A stretch of DNA of 64,000 nucleotides, from IMG/VR virus record IMGVR_UViG_3300047547_000167, positions 1 through 64,000 of that record; one strand, given 5' to 3'. The first letter of the stretch is position 1; each line of letters starts with the position of its first letter. Below are positions 3,725-39,861 of the stretch, in pieces. This stretch comes from a virus. The notes below the pieces were generated by a model, which was not told the DNA's origin, did no database searches, and was given only the letters and a program-made list of their open reading frames with translations. The translations under genes and the position numbers were made by a program.

Positions 3725-3725
3725 T

Positions 3726-5293: not shown

Positions 5294-5751
5294 GAAAACG
5301 CACGCGCCGCAAGGTTTACCCCCTGGTGAACCCCATCGAAATGGCAATCAGTGGCGCAGGTATCGCCACGAACGACCGACTGGACAAACTCCGCGCCCTG
5401 GAGCTGTCCGCCATCGACGCCATTGCGCACGGGTCCGGCACGATGGGCGACCTTGGGACGCTGCGCGACATGCTCAACATCGCAGAGGTGATGGCACTTG
5501 GCGGGGTTGGCCCGGAAGTGCTGGAGCCGTCCCGGCTCGCTCAGCGCGAGCTGGTGGACATGATCGAGCGCCACAACCGAACGGGGCGCATTGGCTCCAC
5601 CGGGGCCGGGCTTGAAGCATTCCGCGAGGCATACCGGTGGCACGACATCCAGCGCACCAGCATCGCGCGCAGCGAGTACGAGCACTTCATCAAGAAAACG
5701 GCCAACGCCATCAAGGGCGGCAAGGCCAAAGCGGTCACGGTGGTCGCTTAA
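5290..5751 (+). CDS. Conserved phage protein, 153 aa, unknown
   Basis: The ATG overlaps the dUTPase stop (ATGA), which sets the start. The N-terminus is very basic (MRKRTRRKVY), followed by a helical body with motifs LVNPIEMAISGA and YRWHDIQRTSIARSEYE. I recall similar proteins in prophages of Burkholderiales, always unannotated. It ends convergently with the terminase gene, sharing the stop codon bases (5748-5751), so there is no room for a terminator between them. Confidence 0.75.
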   Translation: MRKRTRRKVYPLVNPIEMAISGAGIATNDRLDKLRALELSAIDAIAHGSGTMGDLGTLRDMLNIAEVMALGGVGPEVLEPSRLAQRELVDMIERHNRTGRIGSTGAGLEAFREAYRWHDIQRTSIARSEYEHFIKKTANAIKGGKAKAVTVVA

Positions 5752-8369
5752 ACCGCAATGAACAACGGGCACCCGGGGTCGGTTTCGCGCACGCGAACAC
5801 CATCCCGCTCGTTGCACCGGCCGTTGTCGAATGAGATGCACCGGCCACACACGTCGCCGGACACCTGCAGCACCTCCTGAATGGCATTGCTCAGCGTCGG
5901 CGTGTAGCGCTCCAGCACCACCTGCACCGATGTCTCCTTGGGCTTTTCAGGCTCCGGCAGGATGAACATATTGGTGCCATACGCGCGGGCCCAGGCTACG
6001 TCAGTCAGCATATTTGCGTAGCTAGAGTGCGGGTCAATCCCCACTTTAACCACCCGGCGCTTGAACTTCTTTTCTTCCTCGTCCTTTTCCGCGATCAGCG
6101 CCGTGCGCGTGAAGTGGAAGAACGCGTACTCCTTGCACACGGGCGACATGCGCCACTTGCCCTTCTCCAGCACCTCCTGCACCAGCCCATCGGGATCAGG
6201 GAACAGGCAGAGCTTTTTCTGGAATCGGCCCATCGACACCTGCATGCACTTGTACTGGTCGAGGGTGACGGTGTAGCGGTCCCGCAATTCCTCGTCCGTC
6301 CTGCGCTCGCTGGTGTCCAGCTTCGGGGCATCGCCCCAGCGCAGCATGTCGCCCTCCATGTTGCCGTACCCAGCCAGGAACACGCGGCCGTCATGGCGGC
6401 GGGCAAACGACTTGGCGTTGTCGTAGTTGGGCAGCGTTTCCACCACGCAGCACTGCACACCGTAGGCCGCCATCAGCTCGTCGCAGCGGTCCCATGGCGA
6501 GGCCTCGGGGTCGTCCTTCGTTGGCGCCCGGAAGATGTACTCCATGTGCACCACGGCCTGGCGACCGTCGGGCAGCCGCTCCTTGATGATGGCCACAATG
6601 AAGGAGCCCATCTGGTCGAGCCCCATGAAGGTGCCGCGACCGTTGCGTCGCCACTGGAGCCCGTACTCCATGCCCACGCGAGCGCACTCGTTGAGCATTT
6701 CCAGGTTCACCGGCACCTGGGACGGGTCGGTGTAGGGCTTGCCCAGCTTCCGGTTAAAAAAGTTCTTCATGTCGTCGGCGTTGTGGTACGCCTCGATGAT
6801 GTCCCGGGGGCTGATTGTGGGCGACAGGAACTGGGGGAAGTGCACCGAGCGAATCTCAGCGTCCGGCGCCTTTGCGATCCACTGGCCGACCTGCGGGTCG
6901 TCAATCCACCCCTGGCACGACACGCACCGGTACCGGTACTCGCCACGGGTGGTGCCACCCTCACGTTGCAGCAGGCGCGGCGCCTCGGCGTCGTAGCCGA
7001 TGCACTGGGGGAAGTTTTCGTCCAACACCTGCAGCGTCGCGCAGTGCGGGCACTCGGTGTGGAACTGGTGCTGGGTGCCCTTCTTGTACCAGAAGTGAAT
7101 GTCGGAATCCGGCCAGTTGGCCGTGGAGCCCATGAGCGTGTACCGCAGCGCCGAGGCGGACATACGCTCGCGGGTTTTCTCCATGTCCGCGATTGCCATC
7201 TCCTGCACCTCGTCAAACGAGACGACATCCATAGGGAAGGATTCGGTCGCGGTCTTGCCGGTGGTCCAGAGGAAGTGAAACCGGGATGAGCCCAGGTTTC
7301 GGATCAAGATGTTGCCCTCGCCCCCACGGCCACCAGAGGCCTGCTTCTCGGTCATCAGGGCGTACACGTCGGGCACGGTCCGCACGATGGGCATGAAGCG
7401 CTCGCTCGACTTGCCGGACGCCAGCATCTGCGAGGGCATGAACATGCCGATCTTGGCCGGCGAGAACCGCATGGCCAGGTAGATCATGGCCAGCATTTCC
7501 ATGACGGTGAAGCCCACCTGCGTGCACTTCATGATCACGTCGGTGCGGTTGAAGGCGTCCTCAATCGTGGCCGGGATGAGGTCGTAAATGAACCGCATGG
7601 CCGGGCGGTCGGACAGCGTGAAGGCGCGGCCGTCCACCTTCAGACCATCGGCCTCCAGCCGCTCGCACCACTGGAGGAACGTCTCGCCGGGTTTGAGCGA
7701 GCGCTGCTCCTGGGTGAACTCGACGGCCACGTCAAAGAACTCGGCGCCGAACCGCTGGCGCTGCTCCAGCTCGGTGGCCAGCGACGCCGCCAGGCGCGCC
7801 TCTTCGGGCAGGTGCGGATTGCAGAAGCTGTCGAACTGCCACACCGACCAGTCGGGGTCGGTCTGGCCGAGGCGGCACAGCCGGTAGAAGTCGTTGCGCT
7901 TGCCGAAGGCCCCGGACAGAAACCAGGCGTCGCCGTTGTAGACCTTCAGCATGGGGCGGAGCACGTCATCCCACAGATTGAGCAGGCCCTCCACCAGCCG
8001 GGCGTCGTCCACCACGATCAGGCCGTACTGCTCGAACAGCTCCTGGGGCTTTTCCAGGCTGTAGAAGTCGATGAATCCGCCGGACACCAGCTCCAGGCGG
8101 CGCGCATTGACGCGGCGTTTGATGAGCGGGTCGATGGACCGCATCACCTGGCGGCGGGCCTCGATCATGGCGTCGTCGGTGGGCGAGAACCAGGCCACGG
8201 GCTTTTTGCTGTTGAACGCGCCCTTGGGGCCCGCCAGCAGCACCTCGATGCCGAGCGTGGTCTTCCCGAACTGCTCCCCGGCGGCCACGGCGTTGAACCG
8301 GCTGGCCCGCGCCAGCGCCTTCTGCTGGGCTGCGTGGGGGGTTGGGAGCGAGATTTTTACTTGGGCCAT
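5748..8369 (-). CDS. Terminase large subunit with two ATPase-like domains
   Basis: 873 residues, far longer than the usual 400-650. It is the DNA-packaging motor and nuclease. Residues 1-225 resemble the ATPase half of a TerL: FNAVAAGEQFGKTT as Walker A (31-38), LIVVDD (117-122) at Walker B with Asp replacing the catalytic Glu, then LSGAFGKRNDFYRL. Residues 228 onward resemble a lambda GpA-type terminase: deviant Walker A KCTQVGFT (281-288), SFDEVQEM (384-391), a zinc site CPHC (440-443) with CVSC (482-485), then an RNase H-like nuclease starting GLDQMG (583-588) with SSYANMLTDVAWA near the end. The reading frame is continuous. The N-terminal domain may be a degenerate duplicate or a regulatory subunit. 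Confidence 0.88.
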   Translation of the reverse strand: MAQVKISLPTPHAAQQKALARASRFNAVAAGEQFGKTTLGIEVLLAGPKGAFNSKKPVAWFSPTDDAMIEARRQVMRSIDPLIKRRVNARRLELVSGGFIDFYSLEKPQELFEQYGLIVVDDARLVEGLLNLWDDVLRPMLKVYNGDAWFLSGAFGKRNDFYRLCRLGQTDPDWSVWQFDSFCNPHLPEEARLAASLATELEQRQRFGAEFFDVAVEFTQEQRSLKPGETFLQWCERLEADGLKVDGRAFTLSDRPAMRFIYDLIPATIEDAFNRTDVIMKCTQVGFTVMEMLAMIYLAMRFSPAKIGMFMPSQMLASGKSSERFMPIVRTVPDVYALMTEKQASGGRGGEGNILIRNLGSSRFHFLWTTGKTATESFPMDVVSFDEVQEMAIADMEKTRERMSASALRYTLMGSTANWPDSDIHFWYKKGTQHQFHTECPHCATLQVLDENFPQCIGYDAEAPRLLQREGGTTRGEYRYRCVSCQGWIDDPQVGQWIAKAPDAEIRSVHFPQFLSPTISPRDIIEAYHNADDMKNFFNRKLGKPYTDPSQVPVNLEMLNECARVGMEYGLQWRRNGRGTFMGLDQMGSFIVAIIKERLPDGRQAVVHMEYIFRAPTKDDPEASPWDRCDELMAAYGVQCCVVETLPNYDNAKSFARRHDGRVFLAGYGNMEGDMLRWGDAPKLDTSERRTDEELRDRYTVTLDQYKCMQVSMGRFQKKLCLFPDPDGLVQEVLEKGKWRMSPVCKEYAFFHFTRTALIAEKDEEEKKFKRRVVKVGIDPHSSYANMLTDVAWARAYGTNMFILPEPEKPKETSVQVVLERYTPTLSNAIQEVLQVSGDVCGRCISFDNGRCNERDGVRVRETDPGCPLFIAV

Positions 8370-16006: not shown

Positions 16007-16020
16007 ATTCTACGCGGTCA
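16007..16020 (-). promoter_or_regulatory. Weak promoter-like element
   Basis: Leftward TCTGACCGCGTAGAAT followed by CGAGCC. The -10 and downstream bases resemble the early family (TAGAATTGAGCC at 22142). The bases before it resemble the late family (TGACCGC). It lies upstream of the gene starting at 15975. Function is uncertain. Confidence 0.4.
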
Positions 16021-17451
16021 GAACGGCTGGCCGTCGTCCTCGTCGGGGGTGGGCTCGGTGAGGTCGGCAGGGGCGCGCACCTCGCCGTCGCGGGGGAATG
16101 GCTCGCCGGTAACGGCATGCACAGCACGGCGGCCGGTCAGCATTTCCCAGCGGCGCACGGCCACGTCCACGAACTTGGCGTCCAGCTCGGTGACGCGCGC
16201 CACCAGGCCCATGCGGTCGGCGGCGATCATCGTGGTGCCGGACCCCGAGAACCAGTCGATCACCACGTCACCCGGGCGGCTCGACGGCTTCATCAGCTTC
16301 TCCCACAGGCCCACGGGCTTGGTGGTGGGGTGCAGCTCGGAGCGCGACGGCTTGTCGTGGTAGATGACCGAGCCGGGCACTTCCTCGATGGTCGCCTGGC
16401 CGTCCACCACCAGGACGGAATCGCCCACGGTGATGGCCCAGCGGCCGTCTTCCAGCTTGCGCACGGGACCGGACTCGCCCCACTCCACCACCGTGGTGCG
16501 CTTGCGGCCGCCGTACCAGCGGTGGGCAGCGCCGGGCTTCCACCCGTACAGGATGGGCTCGTGCTGCCACTGGTAGTCGGAGCGGCCCAGCACCAGGGAG
16601 TTCTTGCGCCAGATCAGGCAGCCGGACAGCTTGAAGCCAGCCGCACGGAAGGCGTCGCGGAAGTTGAGCCCCTCGGTGTCGGCGTGGGCCACGTAGATCG
16701 GCGCGCCGGGCTTCATGACGGCGAACATCGAGTCGTACCAGCCGCCCAGCATGCGGCGGAACTCGGCGTCGGCCATGTTGTCGTTTTTGATCGACCCGGC
16801 CAGCTTGGACTCGTAGGCCACGTTGTAAGGCGGGTCCGTGACGCACAGGTCCGCCATTTCGCCCTGCATGAGGGCATCGATCAGCTTGGCATCGGAGCAG
16901 TCGCCACACGCAATGCGGTGGGGCCCGCACACCCACACGTCACCCGCACGGGAGTGCGGCACGTCCGGCGTGGGGGGCACGGCATCGGGGTCGCCACCAC
17001 CCTCGGGGGGCTCAGGGTCAACCATGCCCTCAAACAGCTTCGCCAGGTCTTCCTCGGCGAAGCCCGTGTACAGCTCCAAGTCGATACCCATGGCGCGGAG
17101 GTCGTCAGTCTCCAGCTTCAGCATGTCCAGGTCCCAGGTCGCCATTTCGGCGAGCCTGTTGTCAGACACAACGAGCCCGCGACGGTCGACGTCCGACAGG
17201 TGCGAGAGGTCGATGCCCGGCACGCGGGACAGGCCCAGCTTTTTCGCGGCCATGATGCGGCCGTGACCAGCCAGGATGCCGCCGTCGGCCACCAGGATGG
17301 GGGTGGTCCAGCCAACGCGCTGGATGGTGCCGGCGAGCGCCTCGATTTGAGCCGGGCTGTGCTTGCGGGAGTTTCGGGCGTAGGGCAGCAGGGCCTCGAC
17401 CTCGAACATGCGGATTTCAGACGGCATCCGCACGCCTTCATCAGCCGCCAT
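16018..17451 (-). CDS. ParB-domain / DNA N-methyltransferase fusion
   Basis: 477 residues. The N-terminal ~110 residues are a ParB/sulfiredoxin-like nuclease-fold domain (LLPYARNSRKHSPAQIEAL, PILVADGGILAGHGRIMAAKKLG). The C-terminal part is a class beta N6-adenine/N4-cytosine methyltransferase: the catalytic TDPPYNV precedes the SAM-binding DWFSGSGTT, and HPTTKPV is present. The fusion is widespread in phages and is thought to modify phage DNA against host restriction. The ATG overlaps the stop of the small-terminase candidate (TGATG). No cognate endonuclease is seen, so it is likely an orphan methylase. Confidence 0.9.
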   Translation of the reverse strand: MAADEGVRMPSEIRMFEVEALLPYARNSRKHSPAQIEALAGTIQRVGWTTPILVADGGILAGHGRIMAAKKLGLSRVPGIDLSHLSDVDRRGLVVSDNRLAEMATWDLDMLKLETDDLRAMGIDLELYTGFAEEDLAKLFEGMVDPEPPEGGGDPDAVPPTPDVPHSRAGDVWVCGPHRIACGDCSDAKLIDALMQGEMADLCVTDPPYNVAYESKLAGSIKNDNMADAEFRRMLGGWYDSMFAVMKPGAPIYVAHADTEGLNFRDAFRAAGFKLSGCLIWRKNSLVLGRSDYQWQHEPILYGWKPGAAHRWYGGRKRTTVVEWGESGPVRKLEDGRWAITVGDSVLVVDGQATIEEVPGSVIYHDKPSRSELHPTTKPVGLWEKLMKPSSRPGDVVIDWFSGSGTTMIAADRMGLVARVTELDAKFVDVAVRRWEMLTGRRAVHAVTGEPFPRDGEVRAPADLTEPTPDEDDGQPF

Positions 17452-18056
17452 CAGAACTCGCCCCCGTCGTCGGTACCGGTGGCCACGGCGGGCGCAGCAG
17501 CACCACGCTCGACCACAACGACGGTCTGGCCATCACCGGCGCGCGCGTCGTGGTTGATCCCGTAGGCACGGCACTCGCCCACCTGCACCAGGGTCAGGGT
17601 CTCGGCGGTGATCTTCGCCAGCTTGGCGCGCTCGAAGCCGCCAGCAATGTCGCCCTTGCCCGCCTGCTGCAGCGCCTCGTAAGCGACCTTGCGCGGGGCG
17701 GCCCACTCCTTGCGGTGGCGGTCCAGCACCTCGGCGCGGACATCGGTGGCGAACTCCTGGGCCACCTCACGGGAGGCCTCGGCGGCGGCGACTTCATCGG
17801 AAAGGGGTTTGCCCAGCTCTGACATGCGAACCTTGAATTTGTTGGCAAGCTCGCCAGCGCGAGCGGAAAGCCCGGCAGCGGGCCGGGTAGCGACGACCCA
17901 CTTGCCCTCGGACTTCCACGAGCGGATCAGCTTGTGATCCACGCCCACGGCAGCAGCCACGGTGTCGATGGTCGCGCCAGGCTGGCCCTCGAACAGCGCA
18001 CGGGCAGCAGCGCGGCGGCTGGCCATGTCCTCGACAAGTTTCTTTTTTACGGTCAT
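17451..18056 (-). CDS. Probable terminase small subunit
   Basis: 201 residues. The N-terminal HTH (residues ~20-52: EGQPGATIDTVAAAVGVDHK then LIRSWKSEGKWV) is of the kind used by small terminases to recognise pac/cos DNA. A helical middle (EVAQEFATDVRAEVLDRH...) could form the oligomer core. It is the first gene of the long leftward late unit that contains the large terminase, methyltransferase and virion genes. The start lacks a Shine-Dalgarno and sits 6 nt after a late -10 (leaderless). A generic HTH regulator is the alternative. Confidence 0.65.
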   Translation of the reverse strand: MTVKKKLVEDMASRRAAARALFEGQPGATIDTVAAAVGVDHKLIRSWKSEGKWVVATRPAAGLSARAGELANKFKVRMSELGKPLSDEVAAAEASREVAQEFATDVRAEVLDRHRKEWAAPRKVAYEALQQAGKGDIAGGFERAKLAKITAETLTLVQVGECRAYGINHDARAGDGQTVVVVERGAAAPAVATGTDDGGEF

Positions 18057-18062
18057 GGGCTG

Positions 18063-18078
18063 ATCGTGCCGTCACGAC
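18063..18078 (-). promoter_or_regulatory. Late promoter motif (leaderless type)
   Basis: Leftward GTCGTGACGGCACGAT. CACGAT ends 6 nt before the ATG at 18056. It is separated from the upstream unit by the terminator at 18195-18221, so it probably starts the terminase/packaging transcript. Confidence 0.6.
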
Positions 18079-18194
18079 CAACACGCCAGACGGTGCGCCC
18101 GCGTCGCGCCCTTGGGGCAGGCAGAACGGGCGAAACCCACGCCCAGCAAGGCCCGGCGGGCACAGGCTCGGTGACTTGCAATCATTTCGACAAC

Positions 18195-18221
18195 AAAAAG
18201 GCCCAGCGGTGGGGCTGGGCC
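18195..18221 (-). terminator. Rho-independent terminator
   Basis: 8-bp perfect stem GGCCCAGC/GCTGGGCC with a 6-nt loop, followed by TTTTT on the leftward transcript. It ends the 21641-18240 unit before the terminase unit. Confidence 0.8.
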
Positions 18222-18239
18222 AGTGAGGGAGGAACAACG

Positions 18240-18518
18240 TCAGCGCGCAGAGCACCACCATCGCCAGGTGCCCCGATTGCGCCAGAGCCAGCGCACGCCC
18301 CACAGGGCCGCGTCCAGCAGCAGGAGCGCGACGACACCGCCCGAGATGAGCAATGGCCCCGCCAGCAGCGCGAACAGCCACGGGCCATCCACGATGATCA
18401 GGTAGGCCAGCAGCGACAGCCACAGGGTGACGGCGTAGAGGCAGGCGATCAGGACGTGCACGGAAAGAACCCCAGCGGCGACGGCCCAGGGTAGGACGGC
18501 GGGCAGGCTCGGGCTCAT
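18240..18518 (-). CDS. Small membrane protein, 92 aa, three hydrophobic segments
   Basis: Very hydrophobic: residues 5-30 (LPAVLPWAVAAGVLSVHVLI), 31-50 (LYAVTLWLSLLAYLIIV) and 51-75 (LFALLAGPLLISGGVVALLL), ending in a basic Trp/Arg tail. It is the last gene before a terminator. A holin-like topology is conceivable, but it is far from the endolysin, so function is left open. Confidence 0.6.
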   Translation of the reverse strand: MSPSLPAVLPWAVAAGVLSVHVLIACLYAVTLWLSLLAYLIIVDGPWLFALLAGPLLISGGVVALLLLDAALWGVRWLWRNRGTWRWWCSAR

Positions 18519-18549
18519 GGGAAGGCGGGAAAAGCCGGGACAGGCCGGG

Positions 18550-18783
18550 TCAACGCAGGGCGTCGCGCCAGCGCAGGGGCCACAGGGCGGCGTACTCGAA
18601 CGCCACCGTGACCAGCGACAGCGCCATGATCAGCGCCGCAGCCCACACGGGCATGCCTGCCCCGAATGCGGCGCGGCGCAGGTGGGCCATGGACGGGCCC
18701 GAGCGAAACAGGCGCACCACGGACACGGTGGCAAGCGATGCGCCGATGGAGGCGTAGGCGAGAAGGAGGTCGGAGGTGGTCAC
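18550..18783 (-). CDS. Small membrane protein, 77 aa, GTG start
   Basis: The start was set at GTG 18783 because a late-promoter motif ends 7 nt upstream. A longer reading frame to 18885 would run through the motif. Two hydrophobic segments (LLLAYASIGASLATVSVV and VWAAALIMALSLVTVAFEYA) flank a basic loop (RLFRSG...LRRAAF). Function is unknown. Confidence 0.55.
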   Translation of the reverse strand: MTTSDLLLAYASIGASLATVSVVRLFRSGPSMAHLRRAAFGAGMPVWAAALIMALSLVTVAFEYAALWPLRWRDALR

Positions 18784-20692: not shown

Positions 20693-21082
20693 TTACGCAT
20701 GTCCGCGCACTGATTTGGAATCATTCGGCCTTGGAGATTCCCCAGCAATTGCAACGATTTGAGAGGGTAGCGCTGGCGTGGGGTTGGGGTTGGGCGCGCA
20801 CCGCACACCAGCGTCGGCCTCGCCCGCCCTGCCCTTCAGCCTGAGCCCGCAGGAGCACAGCACATCGGGCGCCGCCCCCACGGCCTCGGCCCCGCAATTG
20901 GAGCACACATAGCGCCGCGTGTCGGCCCCAGGCACCAGGGTGGACAGCAGGCGGCCGAAGCAGTGTCGGCATACATGCGGCTCAAGGCGAAACCCCACGT
21001 CCGGCGCGGGCGCGCGCGTTTTTTTTGATTGGGTCGATAGGTTTTTCCTATCGGGCCCGGCATCGCAATAGTTTTCACCCAT
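20693..21082 (-). CDS. Conserved zinc-ribbon phage protein, 129 aa
   Basis: The ATG overlaps the upstream stop by 8 bp (ATGGGTGA). It has repeated cysteine pairs: HVCRHCFG (~37-43), YVCSNCGAE (~58-66), VLCSCGL (~74-80) and GVRCAPNPNPTP (~92-103). I recall this Cys-rich layout from other phages of Burkholderiales, with no known role. It may bind nucleic acid. The C-terminal codons reach into a region with little other coding. Confidence 0.65.
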   Translation of the reverse strand: MGENYCDAGPDRKNLSTQSKKTRAPAPDVGFRLEPHVCRHCFGRLLSTLVPGADTRRYVCSNCGAEAVGAAPDVLCSCGLRLKGRAGEADAGVRCAPNPNPTPALPSQIVAIAGESPRPNDSKSVRGHA

Positions 21083-21641
21083 TCATCACCCCGCCACGTC
21101 CCAAGCCCATCACAACCCGCCGCGTCGAATCCCGCAGCAGCTCCACCACCAGCTCATCCGTCCCAGCCGTCAGCTCCCGCACCAGAACCCGAACCTCGCC
21201 CCCGACCGCGTACACCACGCGACGCTTCGCCAGCACCGGGTGCAACTTCGGGAACTGCCCCTTGGCATTCTTCCCTTTCACCCACTCGTACTCGCGGTTC
21301 TTGCACCCCACGCACACATTCCCCCCGATCAGCCGCAGATCGGTCCGATGACACCGCGCACAGATCGACACACCCCGCAGCCGGTGGTAGCTCGCATCCC
21401 CCTCGCCCGAGTGCTGCGCCCCAACAGGGCAAGCCCGGCACCGGAACAACCGCTCAGGCACACCCCCCTGGCTGTTCGCCTCGGCCCACATCCCCACACA
21501 CGACACCACGCGAATGCTCGCGCTCAACCGGTCGCACCGGAACATCGGCTGGCCCGGCATCAGCTCGGACTCGAAGTAATCCACCCCCGGCACCTGGACA
21601 GAGCCAGGCGCAGGACAGGCAGCGCGGGAAGCTGGAGGCAT
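21075..21641 (-). CDS. Conserved zinc-binding phage protein, 188 aa
   Basis: First gene of the leftward 21641-18240 unit. Cysteine motifs: MFRCDRL, CRACPVGA (~69), CARCHRTD (~94-97) and CVGCKNRE (~109-112), followed by EWVKGKNAKGQ and an alpha/beta C-terminus with LTAGTDELVVELLRDS. The arrangement resembles conserved hypothetical phage proteins that sit near regulatory regions. DNA binding is plausible. A late-like motif lies ~40 nt upstream of the start. Confidence 0.7.
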   Translation of the reverse strand: MPPASRAACPAPGSVQVPGVDYFESELMPGQPMFRCDRLSASIRVVSCVGMWAEANSQGGVPERLFRCRACPVGAQHSGEGDASYHRLRGVSICARCHRTDLRLIGGNVCVGCKNREYEWVKGKNAKGQFPKLHPVLAKRRVVYAVGGEVRVLVRELTAGTDELVVELLRDSTRRVVMGLGRGGVMNG

Positions 21642-21696: not shown

Positions 21697-21733
21697 AGGC
21701 CGTGAAGCCGTGAATTGGCGGGAAAACAACAGA

Positions 21734-22105
21734 GGAACCGAAGCGGCAGCCAGTTCCCCTCCGGTTCCCTTTTTGGTTCCCTCTCTCTTCTCTTTATTTA
21801 TCAAGACTTAATCAAGATAGTAGTAGTAGAGGGAACCAGGGAACCGGTAAAAGATAGATAACCCCCTAGCGAGAAGACTAGAAAACAGATACCCAGCATG
21901 CAGCATTTTTGTTGCATCACACATACACTCTTTTTCTAGGGTGCTTAGCCTATCGGTCCGGTTCCCGGTGCCTTTGGTTCCCGACACGCAGGAACCCCAA
22001 TGAAATCAACGGTTTTTGCAGGAACCAAGGCGGGAACCACCCCCCGAAAATGCATCAAATTTGCGGGGAACCCGAGGGGGAACCTGAAAGCGGTTCCCGG
22101 TTCCC
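21734..22105. repeat. GGGAACC/GGTTCCC iteron cluster around AT-rich core (candidate origin)
   Basis: About 15 copies of GGGAACC or its complement, some one base off, in ~370 bp without a convincing gene. Inverted-orientation copies (GGTTCCC): 21753 (variant), 21763, 21775, 21960, 21976, 22092, 22099. Direct copies: 21734, 21831, 21839, 21991, 22021, 22032, 22066, 22078. Many spacings are 8-16 bp. Pairs face each other across an AT-rich stretch (21782-21830). This is what an iteron-type replication origin or a multi-site operator would look like. It separates the leftward and rightward units. Nothing else is recognised in 21642-22126. Confidence 0.65.
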
Positions 22106-22126
22106 GCAAGTATTCGAGCACATGCC

Positions 22127-22147
22127 GCAAAATTGTTGTGGTAGAAT
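22127..22147 (+). promoter_or_regulatory. Early promoter/operator motif
   Basis: GCAAAATTGTTGT (22127-22139), then TAGAAT (22142-22147), then TGAGCCATC. It lies at the right edge of the iteron cluster and drives the rightward operon from 22179. Confidence 0.6.
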
Positions 22148-22178
22148 TGAGCCATCGAAACAGACGCCAGACAGCAAC

Positions 22179-22544
22179 ATGACCACCTACAAATGCAGCC
22201 GCTGCGCCGGTACCGGACGCCTGACCCAATTCAGCAACGTGATCGGCGGCACCTGCTTCAAGTGTCACGGCGCTGGAACCCAGCCCAGCAAGCCCGCGAA
22301 GCCCGGGGCCATGTGGGCGGTCTTCGGGTTTGACCGCACCACCGGCACGCTGGCCAGGATTTACAACGTGAGCGCCAAGACAGAGCAGGAGGCCATCAAG
22401 AAGGCCGCCGCCACCATGGCCAGAGCCAGCGCCGAGTACCGCGCCCGGTACGCCGAGCCCGAACGGGCGATTGCATGGACAGACATGACCAACCAGGCCG
22501 CCCTGACATGGGACGAGGCCACCACCACCAAGGAGAACGTATGA
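22179..22544 (+). CDS. Zinc-finger early protein, 121 aa
   Basis: Start at ATG 22179, downstream of the early promoter. A longer open frame to 21909 would run through the iterons and promoter and is rejected. The N-terminus has DnaJ-like zinc motifs CSRCAGTGR and CFKCHGAGT. The rest is helical with SAKTEQEAIKKAAATM. It may be a single-strand or RNA-binding early protein. Its stop overlaps the next start (ATGA). Confidence 0.7.
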   Translation: MTTYKCSRCAGTGRLTQFSNVIGGTCFKCHGAGTQPSKPAKPGAMWAVFGFDRTTGTLARIYNVSAKTEQEAIKKAAATMARASAEYRARYAEPERAIAWTDMTNQAALTWDEATTTKENV

Positions 22545-25442: not shown

Positions 25443-25463
25443 GCAAAATTGTTGCAGTAGAAT
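25443..25463 (+). promoter_or_regulatory. Early promoter/operator motif (consensus copy)
   Basis: GCAAAATTGTTGC (25443-25455), TAGAAT (25458-25463), then AGAGGCATC and an AAGGAG site before the ATG at 25490. Confidence 0.65.
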
Positions 25464-25489
25464 AGAGGCATCGCAACAAGGAGAGCAGC

Positions 25490-28172: not shown

Positions 28173-28364
28173 ATGAACATCCTCGAACACTTCAAGCGCC
28201 CAAGCGCCGAATTGCTGGCCAAACGCGAACTCGAAGAAGCGCGACGCGAACTGCTCGCCGCCGAGAGCGCAGCCGAGTACGCGCAAAAGATGGCGGCCTA
28301 CCACTCCGCCCGCATCACCCGCCTGACCGCATTCATCAGCCGTTCCACCACCCAAGCATCATGA
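28173..28364 (+). CDS. Small coiled-coil protein, 63 aa
   Basis: Helical throughout: LAKRELEEARRELLAAESAA forms a coil, followed by YHSARITRLTAFISR. The N-terminus MNILEHFKRPSAE resembles short prophage proteins next to rdgC-like genes. The ATG at 28361 of the next gene overlaps its stop. Confidence 0.65.
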   Translation: MNILEHFKRPSAELLAKRELEEARRELLAAESAAEYAQKMAAYHSARITRLTAFISRSTTQAS

Positions 28365-29296
28365 TCAAAAACGCCCACGTCTACCGCGCCGACATCCCGA
28401 CCGATCTAGTCGCACTCCACAACCACCTGTCCGAGCGCTCGTTTTCAGAGCCACTCAGCAACCAGACACAGAGCCACGGCTTTGTGCCGCCATTCGGCCA
28501 GGGATGCACCCTCGTCGGCGCCTACCTGGGCGGCATGGCCTTCAGCCTGCGCGTGGACACCAAGGTGATGCCCGCCAGCGCAATCAACGCCGAGGTGAAC
28601 AAGCGCGTCGCCCTGCGCCTGGAGCAAACCGGCCAGAAGCGCCTGAGCAAGCTGGAGCGCGCCGACATCAAGGACGTGGTGCGCTCCGAGTTTTGTGCAA
28701 AAGCTATCGTCACCACGGCGGTGATAAACATTTTCTATGACACCGAGTCCCGGTTCTTGGTGGTGGCCACAGCCAGCCAGCGCATGGCCGATCTGGTCAC
28801 CACGGCGCTGGTGGGAGCCATCGGCAGCATGAAGACCGAGACGATCAACGTCAGCAGCGTCAAGCTGGGCCTCACCACCCGCCTGACCGAATGGCTGCCC
28901 CGCGTTGACGCGGAAGGCGACCAGCTCGAAGGCGACATGGATGCCTTCGGTGAATTCAGCCCAACCGGCGAAGTGGCCATGGCCAACGCCGCGCGCCACA
29001 AGCTGACCGTCAAGGCCGACACGCTGGCTGCCGCCACGGACGCCCTGATCGAAGCCATCAAGCGCGGGTACAGCGTCACGTCGATCCGCCTGGCCCACGG
29101 CTGCTGCACCTTCCGCTTGACCTCCGACTTCCACCTGCGCGGCATCGACATCCCGCGCGAGGAAAACCCGGTGGGCAACGACTGGGAGCACGAAGCCGCG
29201 TGGGAGATGACCAACGTCGTCGCGGTGATGAACGACCTCTGCGCCATGTTTGCCTACAAGGCGCCCGAAGGTGCCGAGGAAGGCGGTGAGGCATGA
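28361..29296 (+). CDS. rdgC: RdgC family recombination-associated protein
   Basis: 311 residues, as in bacterial RdgC (~300). RdgC forms a ring dimer that binds DNA and limits RecA and exonuclease access. Matches: N-terminal KNAHVYRADI, SHGFVPPFGQG, LRVDTKVMPASAINAEVNKR, LSKLERADIKDVVRSEF and INIFYDTESRFLVVATASQR. A phage copy could protect phage DNA ends or modulate recombination with the RecE/SbcC-like genes at 39028-41207. Its start overlaps the upstream stop. Confidence 0.88.
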   Translation: MIKNAHVYRADIPTDLVALHNHLSERSFSEPLSNQTQSHGFVPPFGQGCTLVGAYLGGMAFSLRVDTKVMPASAINAEVNKRVALRLEQTGQKRLSKLERADIKDVVRSEFCAKAIVTTAVINIFYDTESRFLVVATASQRMADLVTTALVGAIGSMKTETINVSSVKLGLTTRLTEWLPRVDAEGDQLEGDMDAFGEFSPTGEVAMANAARHKLTVKADTLAAATDALIEAIKRGYSVTSIRLAHGCCTFRLTSDFHLRGIDIPREENPVGNDWEHEAAWEMTNVVAVMNDLCAMFAYKAPEGAEEGGEA

Positions 29297-30314: not shown

Positions 30315-30607
30315 ACCCGCCAACCCACCCAGGCCAACGCTGCCGCGTCATCGGCGGCCGCATGGCCTTCAACGGCGAGGGCCAGGGGCCCAACCAGGGC
30401 AAAGAGGTCATCACCGTCTTCATGCACGATGAGAAGGCGGGCGTGGAGCAGGAGAACGTCTGGCGCTGCCGAGCGGCCAGCGGGCACGCGCTCCAGACCT
30501 ACTACGGGGCGGGCACCGAGGCTGACTTTTTGGAGTGCTGGCTGGAAATCGTTGAGCCGCCAAAGCAGGTGAACACGACCACCACCGAGCGCGAGGTCAA
30601 AGCCTGA
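30311..30607 (+). CDS. Early phage protein, 98 aa
   Basis: GTG start overlapping the thyA stop. Beta-rich: GQRCRVIGGRMAFNGEGQ, NQGKEVITVFMHDEK, NVWRCRAASGH. Resembles small phage proteins that follow thymidylate synthase. Function unknown. Confidence 0.6.
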   Translation: MNPPTHPGQRCRVIGGRMAFNGEGQGPNQGKEVITVFMHDEKAGVEQENVWRCRAASGHALQTYYGAGTEADFLECWLEIVEPPKQVNTTTTEREVKA

Positions 30608-30927
30608 TGGCACAAGTCCGGGTAAACGCGCTTTCGTTCGCAATGATGGTCCGGGCCTTGTATGACGGCCCCAAGACCCTGCACCAGCTCTGCGAGATCA
30701 CGGGCCTCCACGTTTGGACGGCCCGTCATTACGTCAAGGCGATGCAAAAGCAGGAGGTGGTGCACATCACCGGCTGGACGAAGGACAGCATGGGCCGCGA
30801 CGCCATCGCCCACTACGCCCTCGGCATGGGCTTGGACATGCCGCGCGAGTGCAAGACAGGCGCACAGAAGCAGCAGGCACTGAGGGCCCGCAGGCGGGCT
30901 GCCGTCGAGGCCGCGAACAACTCCTGA
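30607..30927 (+). CDS. Putative HTH regulator, 106 aa
   Basis: Winged-helix-like core: MVRALYDGPKTLHQLCEITG, then HVWTARHYVKAMQKQEVVHI. C-terminal basic Ala/Arg tail. Last gene of the rightward early operon before a bidirectional terminator. Likely a transcription regulator; target unknown. Confidence 0.65.
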   Translation: MAQVRVNALSFAMMVRALYDGPKTLHQLCEITGLHVWTARHYVKAMQKQEVVHITGWTKDSMGRDAIAHYALGMGLDMPRECKTGAQKQQALRARRRAAVEAANNS

Positions 30928-30989: not shown

Positions 30990-33737
30990 TCAGATTGGGG
31001 GCTCGTCGTCGTCCAGGACCAGGGACAGCGGAACGGTGATGACCTTGCTGTTGGTGCCCGCGTACTTCCGCGTCCGGTTCCCGTAGTTGGTCGCGCCAGG
31101 CAGGCGTGACAGCTGGCCGCGAAGGTCTGTCACGTAGGCCGTGTCCTTCACCAGCGCATTCAGGTTGGTCGAGCGCACGCCGAACAGGATGGCCTTGTCC
31201 TCGATCATCATCCCGTTTCGGCGCAGGATATCCATGCAAAGTGGGCCGCCAATCGAGGTCGAGCTGACCTGGCGGCCAACCGCCTCGGACAGAATCTCGT
31301 GCACGGTCACGTCGGAGTTCGCCACGCGAATCTTGGCCTCCATGATGGCAGCCAGGGCCTTCTCTGGATCGCCAGGCCCGCCGGACACGTCGGTGTGGTC
31401 CGTCCAGTCGTAGCTGTTGATCATGGCCAGCGCCTCGGCTTCGCTTGCCACCTTGCTGGACGTCAGGCACCACGTACCGGCCAGCAGCGTGCCGTACTGG
31501 TCACCCTGGCGCTGCGTCCCAAACCGAGCGGCAGCGACCCGGCAGAACACCTCGACGTTGGCGATGACAGTGGGCAGCAGCCAGAGGCCGCGAGCCAGGA
31601 TGCGGGCAGGCCAGGTGCCGTCGCGCTTGATCTTGTGGAGCGACTCCTCCAGCTTTTGCCACTGGTCGTCCGACGCGCCCGACTTGGCCGCAGGCCTCAG
31701 CACCAAGGGCGTGATGCGAGACTGGTCCGAGTCCTTGTCGAGCATGGTGTTGATCGAGGCCACGCAAAACATCGACCGGATGTGGAACCGCATGGAGTCG
31801 CCAGAAACCGTGCCCTTGGCCGTCTGGTGCGCGCCTTCGGATGACGACTGGCGCATCAGCATCATGATGGACTTCATGCGTTTGCGGTCGCCCTCGTCGT
31901 TGGGCTCGAACTCGTCAATCAGCGCGGGAACAGCGTCCGCCCGCAGGGTTTGCCGGATGCCGGGCTCGGTGGAATCGCCCTGGAACGGCTCCGAGATGCC
32001 AGACAGCAGCGCCTGAACGTAGTCACTCTGGATTGTGGACTTGCCGGACCCGGCCGCGCCAGTGATCCAGACGTGGGGCCGCCAATTCAGCGCGCCACCA
32101 ATCGGGCTCAGGAACACCCAGCCCGCCAGCAGCGCAGCGGAGCCGGGCCGCGTCCAGCGCGCCATCTTCGCCACTTCGAGCATGTGCTGGCCATCCTCGT
32201 CGGACAGCGGCGTCTCGGCAGGCGGCGTCATGGTCCGCGACATGGGATAGACCCAGCGCGACTCGATATCGGTTATGTCCGTCCGCACGCCATCGACGGA
32301 CAGGTAGTCGCCGTGGTGGAAGACCGCCCGGCCATTGTCGCGCCAGGCGCCACGGCCGCGTACATTCCGGGGGTCGTACACGCCACGCTTGTGAGCAATT
32401 GCCATGATCCACTCGAAGGCCTGCACGCGGTTGACGCCGCCTTTGTCGCCCGGGAAATGCATCTCCCACCAGTTCGTGGGGGCCAGCTCCGCCAACCCCA
32501 TGTCGCTGAAGTCCTGCCGCGAGCGGTGGAGCACCATCCGCTTGGCGCGGTGGAAAAAATAGTAGTAGTCGCCGTCGTAGCCCAGGATGGCAAAGTGCCC
32601 GTGGTCGAGAAGCGCCTCGTCTTCGCCATCCAGCGCCGGGATTGAAGGCTGGCCTTCCGGTGGGGGCTCATCGGGCGAGGCGGGCTCCCCCTCCCAAGGC
32701 GGCAAATCATCAGGCGGCACCGGCGCAGGCGCAGGAGCCAGCGCGGCATCAATGACGCCGGCCACGGCCTCCAGCCCCTCGGACTGCTGCAAGTCGTTGA
32801 AGTCGCCAGGAGGCGGCACGGCCACCAGGCCGCCGACGGCATCGGCCGCCTTGCGCGCAGCGGTCACGCCAGGGTTGCCCGCCGTCTGGGTGTCGTTGTC
32901 GGCAGCGAACAGGATGATGGCGTCGGGCTTGGCCGCGCGCAGCTTCTCGGCCACGCGCAACAGGTTCGAGGTGTCGAAGCACACCAGCACCAGGTGGCCG
33001 GTGGCCGCGTGCACGCTGGCACACGTGGCGTAGCCCTCGCCCAGCACGTAGACCACCCGGCCGTCGTGCTGCCGGGGCTTGCCGATTGGGAAGAAGTTGC
33101 CCGACTTGGCCCCGTCTTTGAAAAAGCGCTTCTTGCCACCTTCCTCTGGGTCGATGCCCTGAAGGCTCCAGAGCTTGCCCTTGTTGTCCTTGATCGGGAT
33201 GAGCAGAGACTGCTGCGTGACCACGAACACCTCGCCGGTGTCGGGGTCCACGCGCTCCCAGGTGCCCACACGCAAGCCGTAGGACGAAACGCCCTTGCGG
33301 GCGAGGTAGGGATGGGCGCCGCCAGGCGAAGCCGCGTCCCAGATTTGCTGGGCACGCACGGCGCGCTCTTCATGGAGCGCCGCCTCTTCAGCGGCGGCCT
33401 GGGCGGCACGCTCAGCAGCCCGAGCGCGGTCGGCGTCGATCTCGGCCTTGGAGCGCTTCTTGTGGGTGCCAGCGTCCACCCAGCCCGCCGACTTGGCGTC
33501 GTAGAACAGGCTGGCAATGGTCAGCTTGCCCGCCGTCTTGATCGACTTCCACACCGACTTGGCCGCGCCAGCGCTGTAGCTGTCGCACTGGGAGCCCCAC
33601 TGGTCCCAAATTTCAAAGCCCTCGTCGGGAAACTCGCTCTTGATGCAGGTCGCGGCGCGAACCCAAACCTCACGGCTCGCCGGGTTGAGGTAGCTCAGCG
33701 CAGACCGGACACGCTCAATGCTGGTGGCGTCATGCAT
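30990..33737 (-). CDS. DNA primase-helicase
   Basis: 915 residues from ATG 33737 (AGGGGC upstream); a longer frame to 33779 lacks a site. Domains: PriCT-like N-terminus (1-80: RVRSALSYLNPASREVWVRA), Toprim (~225-345) with GEGYAT and AADND as the metal-binding motifs, then a Pro-rich linker. A C-terminal P-loop ATPase has WITGAAGSGKST as Walker A and VPALIDEFE as Walker B. It would prime and unwind at the phage fork. Last gene of the leftward replication unit; an unusual structured leader precedes it. Confidence 0.88.
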   Translation of the reverse strand: MHDATSIERVRSALSYLNPASREVWVRAATCIKSEFPDEGFEIWDQWGSQCDSYSAGAAKSVWKSIKTAGKLTIASLFYDAKSAGWVDAGTHKKRSKAEIDADRARAAERAAQAAAEEAALHEERAVRAQQIWDAASPGGAHPYLARKGVSSYGLRVGTWERVDPDTGEVFVVTQQSLLIPIKDNKGKLWSLQGIDPEEGGKKRFFKDGAKSGNFFPIGKPRQHDGRVVYVLGEGYATCASVHAATGHLVLVCFDTSNLLRVAEKLRAAKPDAIILFAADNDTQTAGNPGVTAARKAADAVGGLVAVPPPGDFNDLQQSEGLEAVAGVIDAALAPAPAPVPPDDLPPWEGEPASPDEPPPEGQPSIPALDGEDEALLDHGHFAILGYDGDYYYFFHRAKRMVLHRSRQDFSDMGLAELAPTNWWEMHFPGDKGGVNRVQAFEWIMAIAHKRGVYDPRNVRGRGAWRDNGRAVFHHGDYLSVDGVRTDITDIESRWVYPMSRTMTPPAETPLSDEDGQHMLEVAKMARWTRPGSAALLAGWVFLSPIGGALNWRPHVWITGAAGSGKSTIQSDYVQALLSGISEPFQGDSTEPGIRQTLRADAVPALIDEFEPNDEGDRKRMKSIMMLMRQSSSEGAHQTAKGTVSGDSMRFHIRSMFCVASINTMLDKDSDQSRITPLVLRPAAKSGASDDQWQKLEESLHKIKRDGTWPARILARGLWLLPTVIANVEVFCRVAAARFGTQRQGDQYGTLLAGTWCLTSSKVASEAEALAMINSYDWTDHTDVSGGPGDPEKALAAIMEAKIRVANSDVTVHEILSEAVGRQVSSTSIGGPLCMDILRRNGMMIEDKAILFGVRSTNLNALVKDTAYVTDLRGQLSRLPGATNYGNRTRKYAGTNSKVITVPLSLVLDDDEPPI

Positions 33738-34903: not shown

Positions 34904-35318
34904 CGGGGTAAGCCAAGTGAATCTCTCTGTGGTGAGGTGGACAAAGCCAGATCACATCAAGGGGGCGGGAGTAGTCAGGGTGGTGCGCCTCAACGTCCGC
35001 AGCGCCACAGCACGCGCAAGGCTGCTTTGCCAGCCTGCCGGTCTTCAAGGCGGCGGCCACTGCGCCGTTTGCTTTGTAGCGATCAGGAAACCGACGCCGG
35101 TATTCCGCCGTTCTCTCATGGCCGAGGTGGACACGGTGCGGGAGTTTTGACCGCTCACGGTCATAAGCGCGTATCGCGTCGCCGTTGGCGCGACGATGCT
35201 CAAGCATGTCGCGCTTTGTGCACGCCTTGCATTTGTTGAGGTGTCCATCCGCCATCATTTTGTGCCGGTAGAACTCCGACAGCGGCTGGCAAACACCACA
35301 CTTGAAGCACGCTTTCAC
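34848..35318 (-). CDS. HNH endonuclease
   Basis: 156 residues from GTG 35318, whose bases overlap the SSB stop. N-terminal zinc ribbon CFKCGVCQPLSEFYRHK and CKACTKRD. C-terminal HNH with CACCGAADVEAHHPDYSRP and VIWLCPPHHREIH. Inserted between ssb and the next replication gene. The end of this ORF overlaps the following start by up to 56 bp, consistent with recent acquisition. Confidence 0.85.
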   Translation of the reverse strand: MKACFKCGVCQPLSEFYRHKMMADGHLNKCKACTKRDMLEHRRANGDAIRAYDRERSKLPHRVHLGHERTAEYRRRFPDRYKANGAVAAALKTGRLAKQPCACCGAADVEAHHPDYSRPLDVIWLCPPHHREIHLAYPDDHYHDVHNPKQKPGWRT

Positions 35319-35773
35319 CAAGGCCCCCGCATCGGAGCGAATGGGATGTCGTCATCCATTGCGCCATACCCACCACCAGCAGGCGCGGCAGCCGGTGCAC
35401 GCGCTGGCGCGGGAGCAGGAGCTGGTGCGCCGCCTTCAGGCTTTGCCCCCAGCAACTGGAAGTCCTGGCCCCGCACCTCGGTGACGTACTTCTCGGCCCC
35501 GTCCTTGTCGGTGTACTTGCGCACCGAGAACTCGCCGTTCGCCCGCATCTGCGAGCCCTTCTTGGCGTACTGGCCAATCAGCTCGGCGGTCTTCCCAAAG
35601 AACGAGAACGGCACCCAGGTGGTCTGCTCCTTCATTTCACCGGTGGCCTTGTCCTTCCACTTTTTGCCCACCGCCAGCGAGATGTTCACCGCCGCGTCGC
35701 CGTTGGGCATGCGGCGCACCTCGGGATCACGCCCCAGGCGTCCGATGACGCAAACCAAATTCAAATCAGCCAT
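35315..35773 (-). CDS. ssb: Single-stranded DNA-binding protein
   Basis: 152 residues. OB-fold SSB: LNLVCVIGRLGRDPEVRRM, SLAVGKKWKDKATGE, TTWVPFSFFGKTAELIGQYA, and a Pro/Ala-rich tail with DDDIPF near the end, resembling the protein-interaction tip. Coats single strands at the phage fork. RBS and position after the helicase are normal for a phage replication unit. Confidence 0.93.
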   Translation of the reverse strand: MADLNLVCVIGRLGRDPEVRRMPNGDAAVNISLAVGKKWKDKATGEMKEQTTWVPFSFFGKTAELIGQYAKKGSQMRANGEFSVRKYTDKDGAEKYVTEVRGQDFQLLGAKPEGGAPAPAPAPARAPAAAPAGGGYGAMDDDIPFAPMRGPW

Positions 35774-35800: not shown

Positions 35801-37411
35801 TTAGAAGGCCCGTGATTTGCCCGAATTCTTGCGCTGCCGCGCGTTCCACAAGTGTTGCGCCCACCCCCGGGAATAACCACGCTGGGCCGCGATCTTCTCC
35901 AGCTCCTCCAGCGTTTTCGCCCCCGCCACCTCGACCTTCTTCTGTCGCTTCAACGCTTCCTCCATTTCCGGGGTGATCTCGGCCAGCTCGCCGTCCACGT
36001 GCTCGGGGCCCTTGCGGACGCGCCCTGGGATGGCGTGCCCGCAATTGGGGCAGACGTGCTCCTGGCCAGCGGGCCGGTCCTTGGGGTCGAAAACCGAGTA
36101 GCACTGGGGGCACTGCGTGAGGTCGATCTTGGGCTCGTCGTCCTTCTTCTTGCCCTTCTTCTTTTTGATGCCGTCCAAGTCCCACTCGCGCTCGGCGTCG
36201 GCGAAGCCGTGCTTCTGCCAGAGCCCGCAGTGGTCGATGACAAAGCACTTGCGCCCCTTGGGGCCGGCGTCGATGGCCGCAAAGCGCTGCTCCGCAGTGT
36301 CCAGCGGCATGCCGGGCGCGAAGATGGGGCGCAGTCCGCGCCCGATGGTTTGCAGGTAGGACGACAGGCTCATGGTGAGCCGCAGCAGGATGACGGCGCC
36401 GATGGCCGGGCAGTCCACGCCTTCCACTAGGAGCATGGCGAACGTGATCAGCTTCAGACGGCCGTCGGACAGCATCTGGAGCGCGCGGTCGCGTTCCTCG
36501 CTGGTGTTCTCGCCCGACAGCGCCAGCGCCGGGATACCGGCGGCGTTGAACTCCTCTGCGACGTGCCGGGCGTGGGCCACGTTGGTGCACCAGGCCACAG
36601 CTGGAACACCGGGGCAGATTTTCTTGTATTCAGCGATGGCGCTCCCGGTGATGACGGGCTTGTCCATCAGGTCGGCCATGGCGTCGGCGTCGTAGTCGCC
36701 GCCCACCTTCTTCACGCCAGACAGGTCGATTTGCTGCTTGGAGGCGAACACGGCGGGCTTCACAAGATAGCCGTTGGCTATCAACTCCTTGATGCTGATA
36801 CCCTGCACCATGGTGTCAAAGCAGCCGCCAGCGTGGCGACCCAGGCCCTTGCCGTCCAGGCGCACCGGGGAGCCGGTCACACCCAGCACGCGGGCCTGGG
36901 GCCACGCGGCCAGGATGTCCATGTAGGACTTGGCGGCGCTGAGGTGGCACTCATCGATGACGATCAGGTCGAAGCCCACGCCCACCGCCTTCATTTTGTC
37001 GATGCGGCGCACCAGCGTCTGCACGCTGGCCACTTGCACCAGGCGGCGAGGGTTGGGGGTGAACCCGGCCATGATGATGCCGTGCTGCACGCCGTTGTCG
37101 TCCAGCTTGCGGCTGGCCTGTTTGATGAGCTGGTCGCGGTGCGCCAGGATGAGCACGCGAGAGCCTTTAGCGGCGGCCGACTTGGCGATGTAGCTGAACA
37201 CGACCGTTTTGCCGGCACCGGTTGCAGCCACCAGCAGGACGGCCTTATGCCCGTTGCGGTACTCGATGCGGACCTTGTCCACGAAGTCGTGCTGGTAATC
37301 GCGCAGGCTCACAGTCGGCGCAGGCGCGGCTGGTCGAGCAGCAGGCGCGGGCCTTGGAGCGGCTGCATTGATGGCGGCAGCCAGGCGCCCGGGTTGATGG
37401 GGAGCGTTCAT
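35801..37411 (-). CDS. SF2 DNA helicase (DEAH-type) with zinc ribbon
   Basis: 536 residues. Motif I AATGAGKT, motif Ia LILAHRDQL, motif II IDECH, motif III GVTGSP, motif V/VI FAMLLVEGVDCPA and QTIGRGLRP. A C-terminal zinc ribbon (CPQCYSVF, CPNCGHAIPG) and helical tail follow. Such UvsW/RecQ-like or ResIII-type helicases remodel forks in phages. The N-terminal ~30 residues are Ala/Pro-rich and probably unstructured. In the leftward replication unit before ssb. Confidence 0.9.
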   Translation of the reverse strand: MNAPHQPGRLAAAINAAAPRPAPAARPAAPAPTVSLRDYQHDFVDKVRIEYRNGHKAVLLVAATGAGKTVVFSYIAKSAAAKGSRVLILAHRDQLIKQASRKLDDNGVQHGIIMAGFTPNPRRLVQVASVQTLVRRIDKMKAVGVGFDLIVIDECHLSAAKSYMDILAAWPQARVLGVTGSPVRLDGKGLGRHAGGCFDTMVQGISIKELIANGYLVKPAVFASKQQIDLSGVKKVGGDYDADAMADLMDKPVITGSAIAEYKKICPGVPAVAWCTNVAHARHVAEEFNAAGIPALALSGENTSEERDRALQMLSDGRLKLITFAMLLVEGVDCPAIGAVILLRLTMSLSSYLQTIGRGLRPIFAPGMPLDTAEQRFAAIDAGPKGRKCFVIDHCGLWQKHGFADAEREWDLDGIKKKKGKKKDDEPKIDLTQCPQCYSVFDPKDRPAGQEHVCPNCGHAIPGRVRKGPEHVDGELAEITPEMEEALKRQKKVEVAGAKTLEELEKIAAQRGYSRGWAQHLWNARQRKNSGKSRAF

Positions 37412-39027: not shown

Positions 39028-39861
39028 ATGACTACAGAACCAAAGAAACTCGGTCTCGTGATCGAAACCAATGACGAATACCACTCCCACACGGAGTCGA
39101 TCAGCAAGAGCCACCTGGACACGATAGCGTCCGGGTCTCCCCGCCATTACTGGTGGAAATACTTGGCGCCTAACCGCGAGCGCCAAGAGCCCACCGCCGC
39201 CATGATCATGGGTACAGCGGTGCACTCGGCCATCCTGGAGCCCGACCTTTTCACCACGGAGATCATCGAATCGCCGGACTTCGACCGCCGCACCAAGGTG
39301 GGCAAGGCCGAGTACGAGGCATTCCAGCAGGCGAACAAAGGCAAGATCGTCCTCGCCCCCGAAGACTTCGCCACCTGCCTGGCCATCCGCGATGCCGTGC
39401 ACGCCCACCCGGTGGCCGCAGGCCTGCTCCAGGGCGGGCGTGCAGAACAATCGTTCTACGCCATCGACCGCGAGACGGGCGAACTCATCAAGTGCCGCAC
39501 CGACTACATGCACGACAGCGGCGCGATGATCGTGGACGTGAAGACGACCGAGGACGCCAGCCCCAACGGGTTCGGCAAGTCGGCGGCGAACTTCCGGTAC
39601 CCCATCCAGACAGCCTGGTACAACGGCGTGCTGGATGCCGCGTTTGGGGAGCACCCGAACACCTGGGTGTTTCTCGCGGTCGAGAAGAAGCCACCCTACG
39701 CGGTCGGCATCTACTTCATGGACGACGACACGCTGGCCCGCGCAGAGATCGCCGCGCGCCGGGACTTCCTGCGCATCGTGGAGTGCAGGCGGTCGGGCGA
39801 ATGGCCCGATTACGGCATGCAGCCGATGCCGCTGGCCCTGCCGGGCTGGAGCAAGCTCTGA
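39028..39861 (+). CDS. RecE-like PD-(D/E)XK exonuclease
   Basis: 277 residues from ATG 39028; a longer frame overlaps the HNH gene and is rejected. Features of the DUF3799/RecE-like family: HLDTIASGSPRHYWWKYL, GTAVHSAILEPDLF, IKCRTDYMHDSGAMIVDVKT (D...DxK catalytic triad) and FRYPIQTAWYNGVL. It would resect double-stranded DNA ends. Followed by an SbcC/RecF-like ATPase and a probable annealing protein, giving a phage recombination set. Confidence 0.87.
   Translation: MTTEPKKLGLVIETNDEYHSHTESISKSHLDTIASGSPRHYWWKYLAPNRERQEPTAAMIMGTAVHSAILEPDLFTTEIIESPDFDRRTKVGKAEYEAFQQANKGKIVLAPEDFATCLAIRDAVHAHPVAAGLLQGGRAEQSFYAIDRETGELIKCRTDYMHDSGAMIVDVKTTEDASPNGFGKSAANFRYPIQTAWYNGVLDAAFGEHPNTWVFLAVEKKPPYAVGIYFMDDDTLARAEIAARRDFLRIVECRRSGEWPDYGMQPMPLALPGWSKL

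Follow-up and report, generated by a model that had tools for sequence, protein, structure and literature searches.

An Iteron Array as the Probable Replication Origin of a Temperate Phage of About 93 kb, with Its Primase-Helicase as the Proposed Initiator

The array of GGGAACC iterons located at 21733–22105 is very probably the replication origin of the phage studied here, and comparison with related sequences suggests that it would be opened by the phage-encoded primase-helicase through the C-terminal domain of this protein. Binding, melting, bidirectionality and origin activity at the array are what we infer. Three kinds of evidence point to this reading, that is, the position of comparable arrays 3′ of the primase-helicase gene, a conserved geometry of the core, and a joint exchange of the iteron motif and the C-terminal domain.

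The Phage and Its Relatives

The window, that is, the whole stretch of 64,000 nt analyzed, corresponds to positions 1–64000 of a record of 92,927 bases and comes from a temperate phage of ~93 kb. The contig carries a terminase, an integrase and long late genes, which are common to autonomous phages and do not fit a helper-dependent satellite. The main features are given in table 1. Megablast searches with 15–30 kb against phage records gave no nucleotide match, and relatives were recruited through protein searches. In the comparisons below, G000 is the phage under study. G001 and G002 are syntenic relatives with many genes 80–97% identical, followed by the further relatives G003 and G004 and then by G007, G009 and G011. 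The contigs of G005 and G006 stop near the primase-helicase gene, and their origin region thus lies outside those contigs.

Table 1. Positions of the iteron sites, neighboring elements and relevant genes in the window
Feature	Position	Strand	Details
Left iteron set	21733–21781		AGGAACC 21733–21739 (+), GGGAACT 21752–21758 (−), GGGAACC 21763–21769 (−) and 21775–21781 (−)
AT-rich core	21782–21830		49 bp, 71% AT
Right iteron pair	21831–21845	+	GGGAACC 21831–21837 and 21839–21845; spacing 8 bp; opposite orientation to the left inner pair
Spacer, core to third iteron set	21846–21959		114 bp, 56% AT
Third iteron set, nine sites	21960–22105		21960 (−), 21976 (−), 21990 (+, AGGAACC), 22020 (+, AGGAACC), 22032 (+), 22066 (+), 22078 (+), 22092 (−), 22099 (−)
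Repeated promoter-like element	22130–22150	+	At the head of the rightward operon; borders the array without belonging to the iteron core; second copy at 25446–25466
GpA-like terminase	5748–8369		Protein-domain search
ParB-like domain fused to DNA methyltransferase	16018–17451	−
RdgC	28361–29296
Primase-helicase, proposed initiator	30990–33737	−	915 aa; PriCT_2 + Toprim_3 primase part, D5/SaPI-like helicase, C-terminal domain (Pfam/PHROG)
C-terminal 152 residues, proposed iteron reader	30993–31448	−	Winged-helix-like helix/strand pattern in the model
Single-strand DNA-binding protein (SSB)	35315–35710	−	Replication module; PHROG 44, E 1e-34
SF2 DNA helicase	35801–37312	−	Replication module
RecE-like exonuclease	39028–39861
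Tyrosine integrase	44965–46128		Protein-domain search

The Iteron Array

The array spans 373 bp and has 15 sites, namely 11 exact GGGAACC, three AGGAACC and one GGGAACT, in agreement with the ~15 copies of a 7-mer in 370 bp that had been reported from the sequence alone (hereafter, the sequence-only reading). In the whole 92.9-kb contig, GGGAACC occurs 16 times. The total in the window, which is also 16, is mildly above the shuffle mean of 10.3, and the exceptional feature is the clustering. Eleven of these copies fall inside the array and the other five are scattered (1116, 11952, 18911, 31076 and 48395), so that the search for the 7-mer elsewhere, which the sequence-only reading had proposed, found no comparable density in the remaining 92.5 kb. 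When all 6- and 7-mers were scanned without bias, the array ranked first in the genome with a log10 p of −22.2, against −4.5 for the runner-up, and the strongest cluster of 25 Markov-1 resamples reached only −5.8.

The two sites of the left inner pair are both on the minus strand, 12 bp apart, and face the right pair across the AT-rich core, as the sequence-only reading had described. Few 50-bp stretches of the 93-kb genome are as rich in AT as the core, which would act as the unwinding element. The spacings between consecutive iterons are, in order, 19, 11, 12, 56, 8, 121, 16, 14, 30, 12, 34, 12, 14 and 7 bp; the proposed spacing of 8–16 bp applies inside the groups and fails between them, where gaps reach 56 and 121 bp. 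Between G000 and G001, the spacer sequence ahead of the third set has diverged, with the iterons kept.

The array lies between divergent genes (21075–21641 on the minus strand and 22179–22544 on the plus strand) and no recognized gene covers it, both as previously claimed. A 60-aa ORF (22000–22182, plus strand) that runs through the third iteron set and overlaps the following start as ATGA was rejected as spurious since the gene caller did not pick it, and it probably arose by chance. To the right of the array, the element AAATTGTTGTGGTAGAATTGA and its second copy, which has three mismatches, are both located ahead of rightward genes, and in G001 and G002 comparable sequences are found upstream of the same operon. 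This repeated element is probably an early phage promoter.

Arrays in the Same Gap of Related Phages

An array was found in the divergent gap to the right of the 21075–21641 orthologue in all eight genomes compared, being weak in G003. In G000, G001, G002, G004, G007 and G011, it is the best array of the genome. The motifs are GGGAACC in G000 and G001, CGGAACCG in G011, GGTAACC in G004, CGTTACA/CGTTGACA in G002, GGTAACA in G007, GGTAAT in G009, and a weak mix of GGTTCC and GGGTAAC in G003. In G001, a gene is placed between a part of the third iteron set and two more iterons. G009 (IMGVR_UViG_3300022744_000026) has two GGTAAT arrays ~26 kb apart (30564–30845 and 56180–56530, reversed coordinates), which might represent two origins or one that was duplicated.

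In several relatives, genes for proteins of 260–306 aa are located within the array or immediately after it, that is, L104 at about 5600–6370 (G001), G003 at 17730–18551, G004 at 3170–3970 and G011 at 51699–52616 (oriented coordinates), and are absent from the phage of the window. The copies of G003 and G004 are related to each other and the others show no similarity (tblastn).

GC skew, which the sequence-only reading had suggested as a check, gave a mixed outcome. Its extremes lie within 1–3 kb of the array in G000, G001, G002 and G009, where they coincide with the switch of the coding strand, and no such extreme is near the array in G003, G004 and G007. GC skew was thus set aside as evidence for an origin, being confounded by gene orientation and inconsistent among the genomes.

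Arrays Are Located 3′ of the Primase-Helicase Gene

Loci with a gene for a relative of the helicase and C-terminal part were taken from bacterial genomes and viral contigs, and 62 of them were scanned without a preset motif; they were picked mainly for length, are therefore not a random sample, and include three near-duplicates of others. A strong array (log10 p < −7) is present in 42 of the 62 loci. Without exception, these 42 arrays are located on the 3′ side of the gene or reach into its final 42 bp. For 37 entries, the ends of the genes and the distances were measured a second time. Small prophages carry the array immediately behind the gene, whereas large phages have it 1–10 kb away. The phage studied here belongs to the latter arrangement, as the 3′ end of its gene faces the array from a distance of 8.9 kb. 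The remaining 20 loci have no strong array within about 10 kb, and at least one of them (PHB04) has an array just beyond, at +10.9 kb.

In named isolates, which were picked by protein similarity and not for arrays, the best array is downstream of the gene in nine out of ten. For instance, the motif is GCTACC in ST4, GGTAACC in the Pseudomonas putida phage Dolphis (gap at 65.9–66.9 kb of MT711888), GGTAAC in Touem01 and GATACC in PHB04, and in these four the array is located in an unannotated divergent gap. The tenth isolate, Mecenats66, had no downstream array that scored; TGTAAC repeats in its gap were seen by eye only. In ST4 (L389 9361–9570) and Dolphis (L390 9051–9287), a gene annotated as a SaPI-like transcriptional repressor adjoins the replication genes.

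These positions also bear on whether the array could be an operator of a lysogeny repressor or of a silencer acting at divergent promoters, similar to stoperators. Such a role would agree with the integrase of this phage and with the location of the array between divergent operons, next to the promoter-like element. On the contrary, in about 20 relatives the array comes right after the stop codon of the primase-helicase gene and not at divergent promoters, the motif follows the C-terminus of this protein (see below), and the sites are not dispersed along the genome as those of stoperator and repressor arrays are. We consider an operator very unlikely, and the multi-site silencer offered in the sequence-only reading loses its ground for the same reasons of distribution and position. 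Its other proposal, an iteron origin, is the one favored by the comparisons.

Conserved Geometry of the Core

G000, G004, ST4, Dolphis and Touem01 share inverted inner pairs, with 12 bp on one side and 8–9 bp on the other, around an AT-rich gap of 50–62 bp, despite their different iteron sequences. In this comparison, some outer iteron partners were identified by eye from the sequence.

The Primase-Helicase

Searches with the sequence of the primase-helicase against the PDB returned weak P-loop hits only. An AlphaFold model of residues 360–915 (mean pLDDT 82.5) matched by Foldseek the SCCmec Cch protein (5dgk, E 4e-7, the top match), the mpox E5 and vaccinia D5 helicases, PriRep1 with dsDNA (7pds) and the SaPI5 primase-helicase (7ola). 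The model thus points to a helicase of the SaPI Rep/D5 fold, for which self-loading is a prediction from the fold. The modeled C-terminal domain consists of repeated elements of a helix and a strand pair, in a winged-helix-like pattern, and gave by itself no significant match in the PDB (Foldseek, best E 0.23).

In the mechanism that we propose, oligomers of the primase-helicase would bind the GGGAACC iterons through the C-terminal domain, and binding at the inverted inner pairs would load two helicase rings on the 49-bp core, which they would open in opposite directions. The TOPRIM part would prime, and the host polymerase, together with the phage SSB, would extend the primers. The third iteron set would probably add initiator or control it.

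The C-Terminal Domain as the Proposed Reader of the Iterons

Among 34 entries with motif models, the similarity of the motifs correlates with the identity of the C-terminal domains (Spearman 0.26, permutation p 0.001), a value which is globally modest and in which relatedness is controlled in part only. The correlation with the primase, the N-terminal part of the helicase and the AAA core is weaker (0.13–0.14). In partial Mantel tests, the signal of the C-terminal domain persists given the primase (p 0.001) or the helicase (p 0.003), and in partial correlations no signal is left for helicase or primase given the C-terminus. For six arrays, the free motif search drifted to AT-rich words and was re-seeded with the enriched k-mer, which could favor known motifs.

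Two discordant pairs separate the domains. L325 and L326 have primases that are 20% identical, C-termini that are 65% identical and similar motifs; G001 and G002 have primases that are 97% identical, C-termini that are 33% identical and different motifs. In detail, residues 1–330 of the primase-helicase are about 88% identical to G000 in both G001 and G002, and residues 335–915 are about 92% identical in G001 and about 45% in G002. At the array, the alignment of G001 and G002 is identical up to GGCGGGAAAACAACA and then gives way to a replaced block, a sharp cassette in which the GGGAACC array is exchanged for CGTTACA-type iterons. Based on the co-variation of the motifs and on this natural swap, the C-terminal domain of the primase-helicase is most likely the part that reads the iterons.

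The ParB-methyltransferase is also mosaic in the G001/G002 pair, and the array might be its partition or methylation site. The protein has a ParB-like part, and its methyltransferase half is exchanged in G002, whose iterons also differ. However, the ParB-like N-terminal part of G002 is the most similar to that of G000 (83–100% identical) despite the different iterons, no full homologue occurs in the compared contigs of G007 and G009, though both have arrays, and many small prophages carry the array behind the primase-helicase gene. A site of this kind therefore seems extremely improbable.

An origin with another host or phage protein as the initiator, to which the primase-helicase is merely linked, has to be weighed against the same data. 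The association with the primase-helicase comes from sequence comparison, other genes differ between G001 and G002 too, and there is one DnaA-box-like site in G003. The other seven of the eight regions have no DnaA box, walking from the primase-helicase gene led to arrays in many otherwise different elements, and the correlation is specific to the C-terminal domain of this protein. We judge another initiator to be quite unlikely, and the primase-helicase remains the preferred candidate.

Comparison with Known Origins

In the origins of phage-inducible chromosomal islands (PICIs), which are located 3′ of rep, an AT-rich region lies between two iteron sets; the rep-ori unit drives plasmid replication, and according to the same authors no other known bacterial replicon has that organization (PMC6092414). 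SaPI Rep recognizes its iterons through the C-terminal domain, and the isolated C-terminal domain of Cch2 binds its short direct repeats (PMC7581432). The phage studied here likewise has two iteron sets around an AT-rich region, an origin located 3′ of the putative initiator gene, and a helicase whose C-terminal domain is predicted to read the origin and whose fold matches the SaPI5 primase-helicase and PriRep1. In contrast, it is a temperate phage of ~93 kb that encodes a terminase and late genes itself, and its probable origin is 8.9 kb from the gene, in an intergenic gap between divergent genes; the immediate 3′ position is found in many of its small prophage relatives. In addition, the primase is of the AEP type in SaPIs and of the TOPRIM type here, where a third iteron set is also present.

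Alpha of the satellite phage P4 binds the origin repeats with a winged-helix domain (PMC4234260). Similarly to alpha, the protein of this phage combines a TOPRIM primase, a helicase and a C-terminal domain, here putatively DNA-binding and winged-helix-like by the model; no direct match between the two was obtained by sequence or structure. In P4 there are two distinct replication sites (ori and crr), compared with one array here. SCCmec Cch/Cch2 resemble the present case in the helicase, Cch being the top structural match, but they come from non-phage elements, where only three iterons follow immediately after the gene. As in lambda ori and iteron plasmids, the iterons adjoin an AT-rich unwinding region. 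In those systems, lambda O and the plasmid initiators are not helicases and load the host DnaB, whereas the initiator proposed here carries both helicase and primase.

In the literature covered, which took in little of the subscription journals, the papers on the isolates Mecenats66 and Touem01 contain no statement on the origin. An origin of the SaPI/PICI/P4 kind in a non-satellite phage, far from its gene, has apparently not been described for such phages.

Implications for Phage Replication

In large temperate phages, origins have rarely been mapped, and the phages compared here appear, from their sequences, to have a PICI-type organization. The present results offer a rule that leads from a protein family to the origin, that is, the densest short repeat 3′ of the primase-helicase, which was checked on about 50 loci. 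The chances are about even that the origin and the C-terminal domain of the initiator can be swapped as a lock-and-key pair throughout a broad range of phages and prophages, with both ends exchanged together by recombination while being kilobases apart. If this is true, the exchange of both ends would create replication-specificity groups, and closely related phages could replicate in one cell without sharing origins. Since C-terminal domains and iterons are naturally paired in dozens of cases, including a clean natural swap, the recognition code of the initiator would be directly testable.
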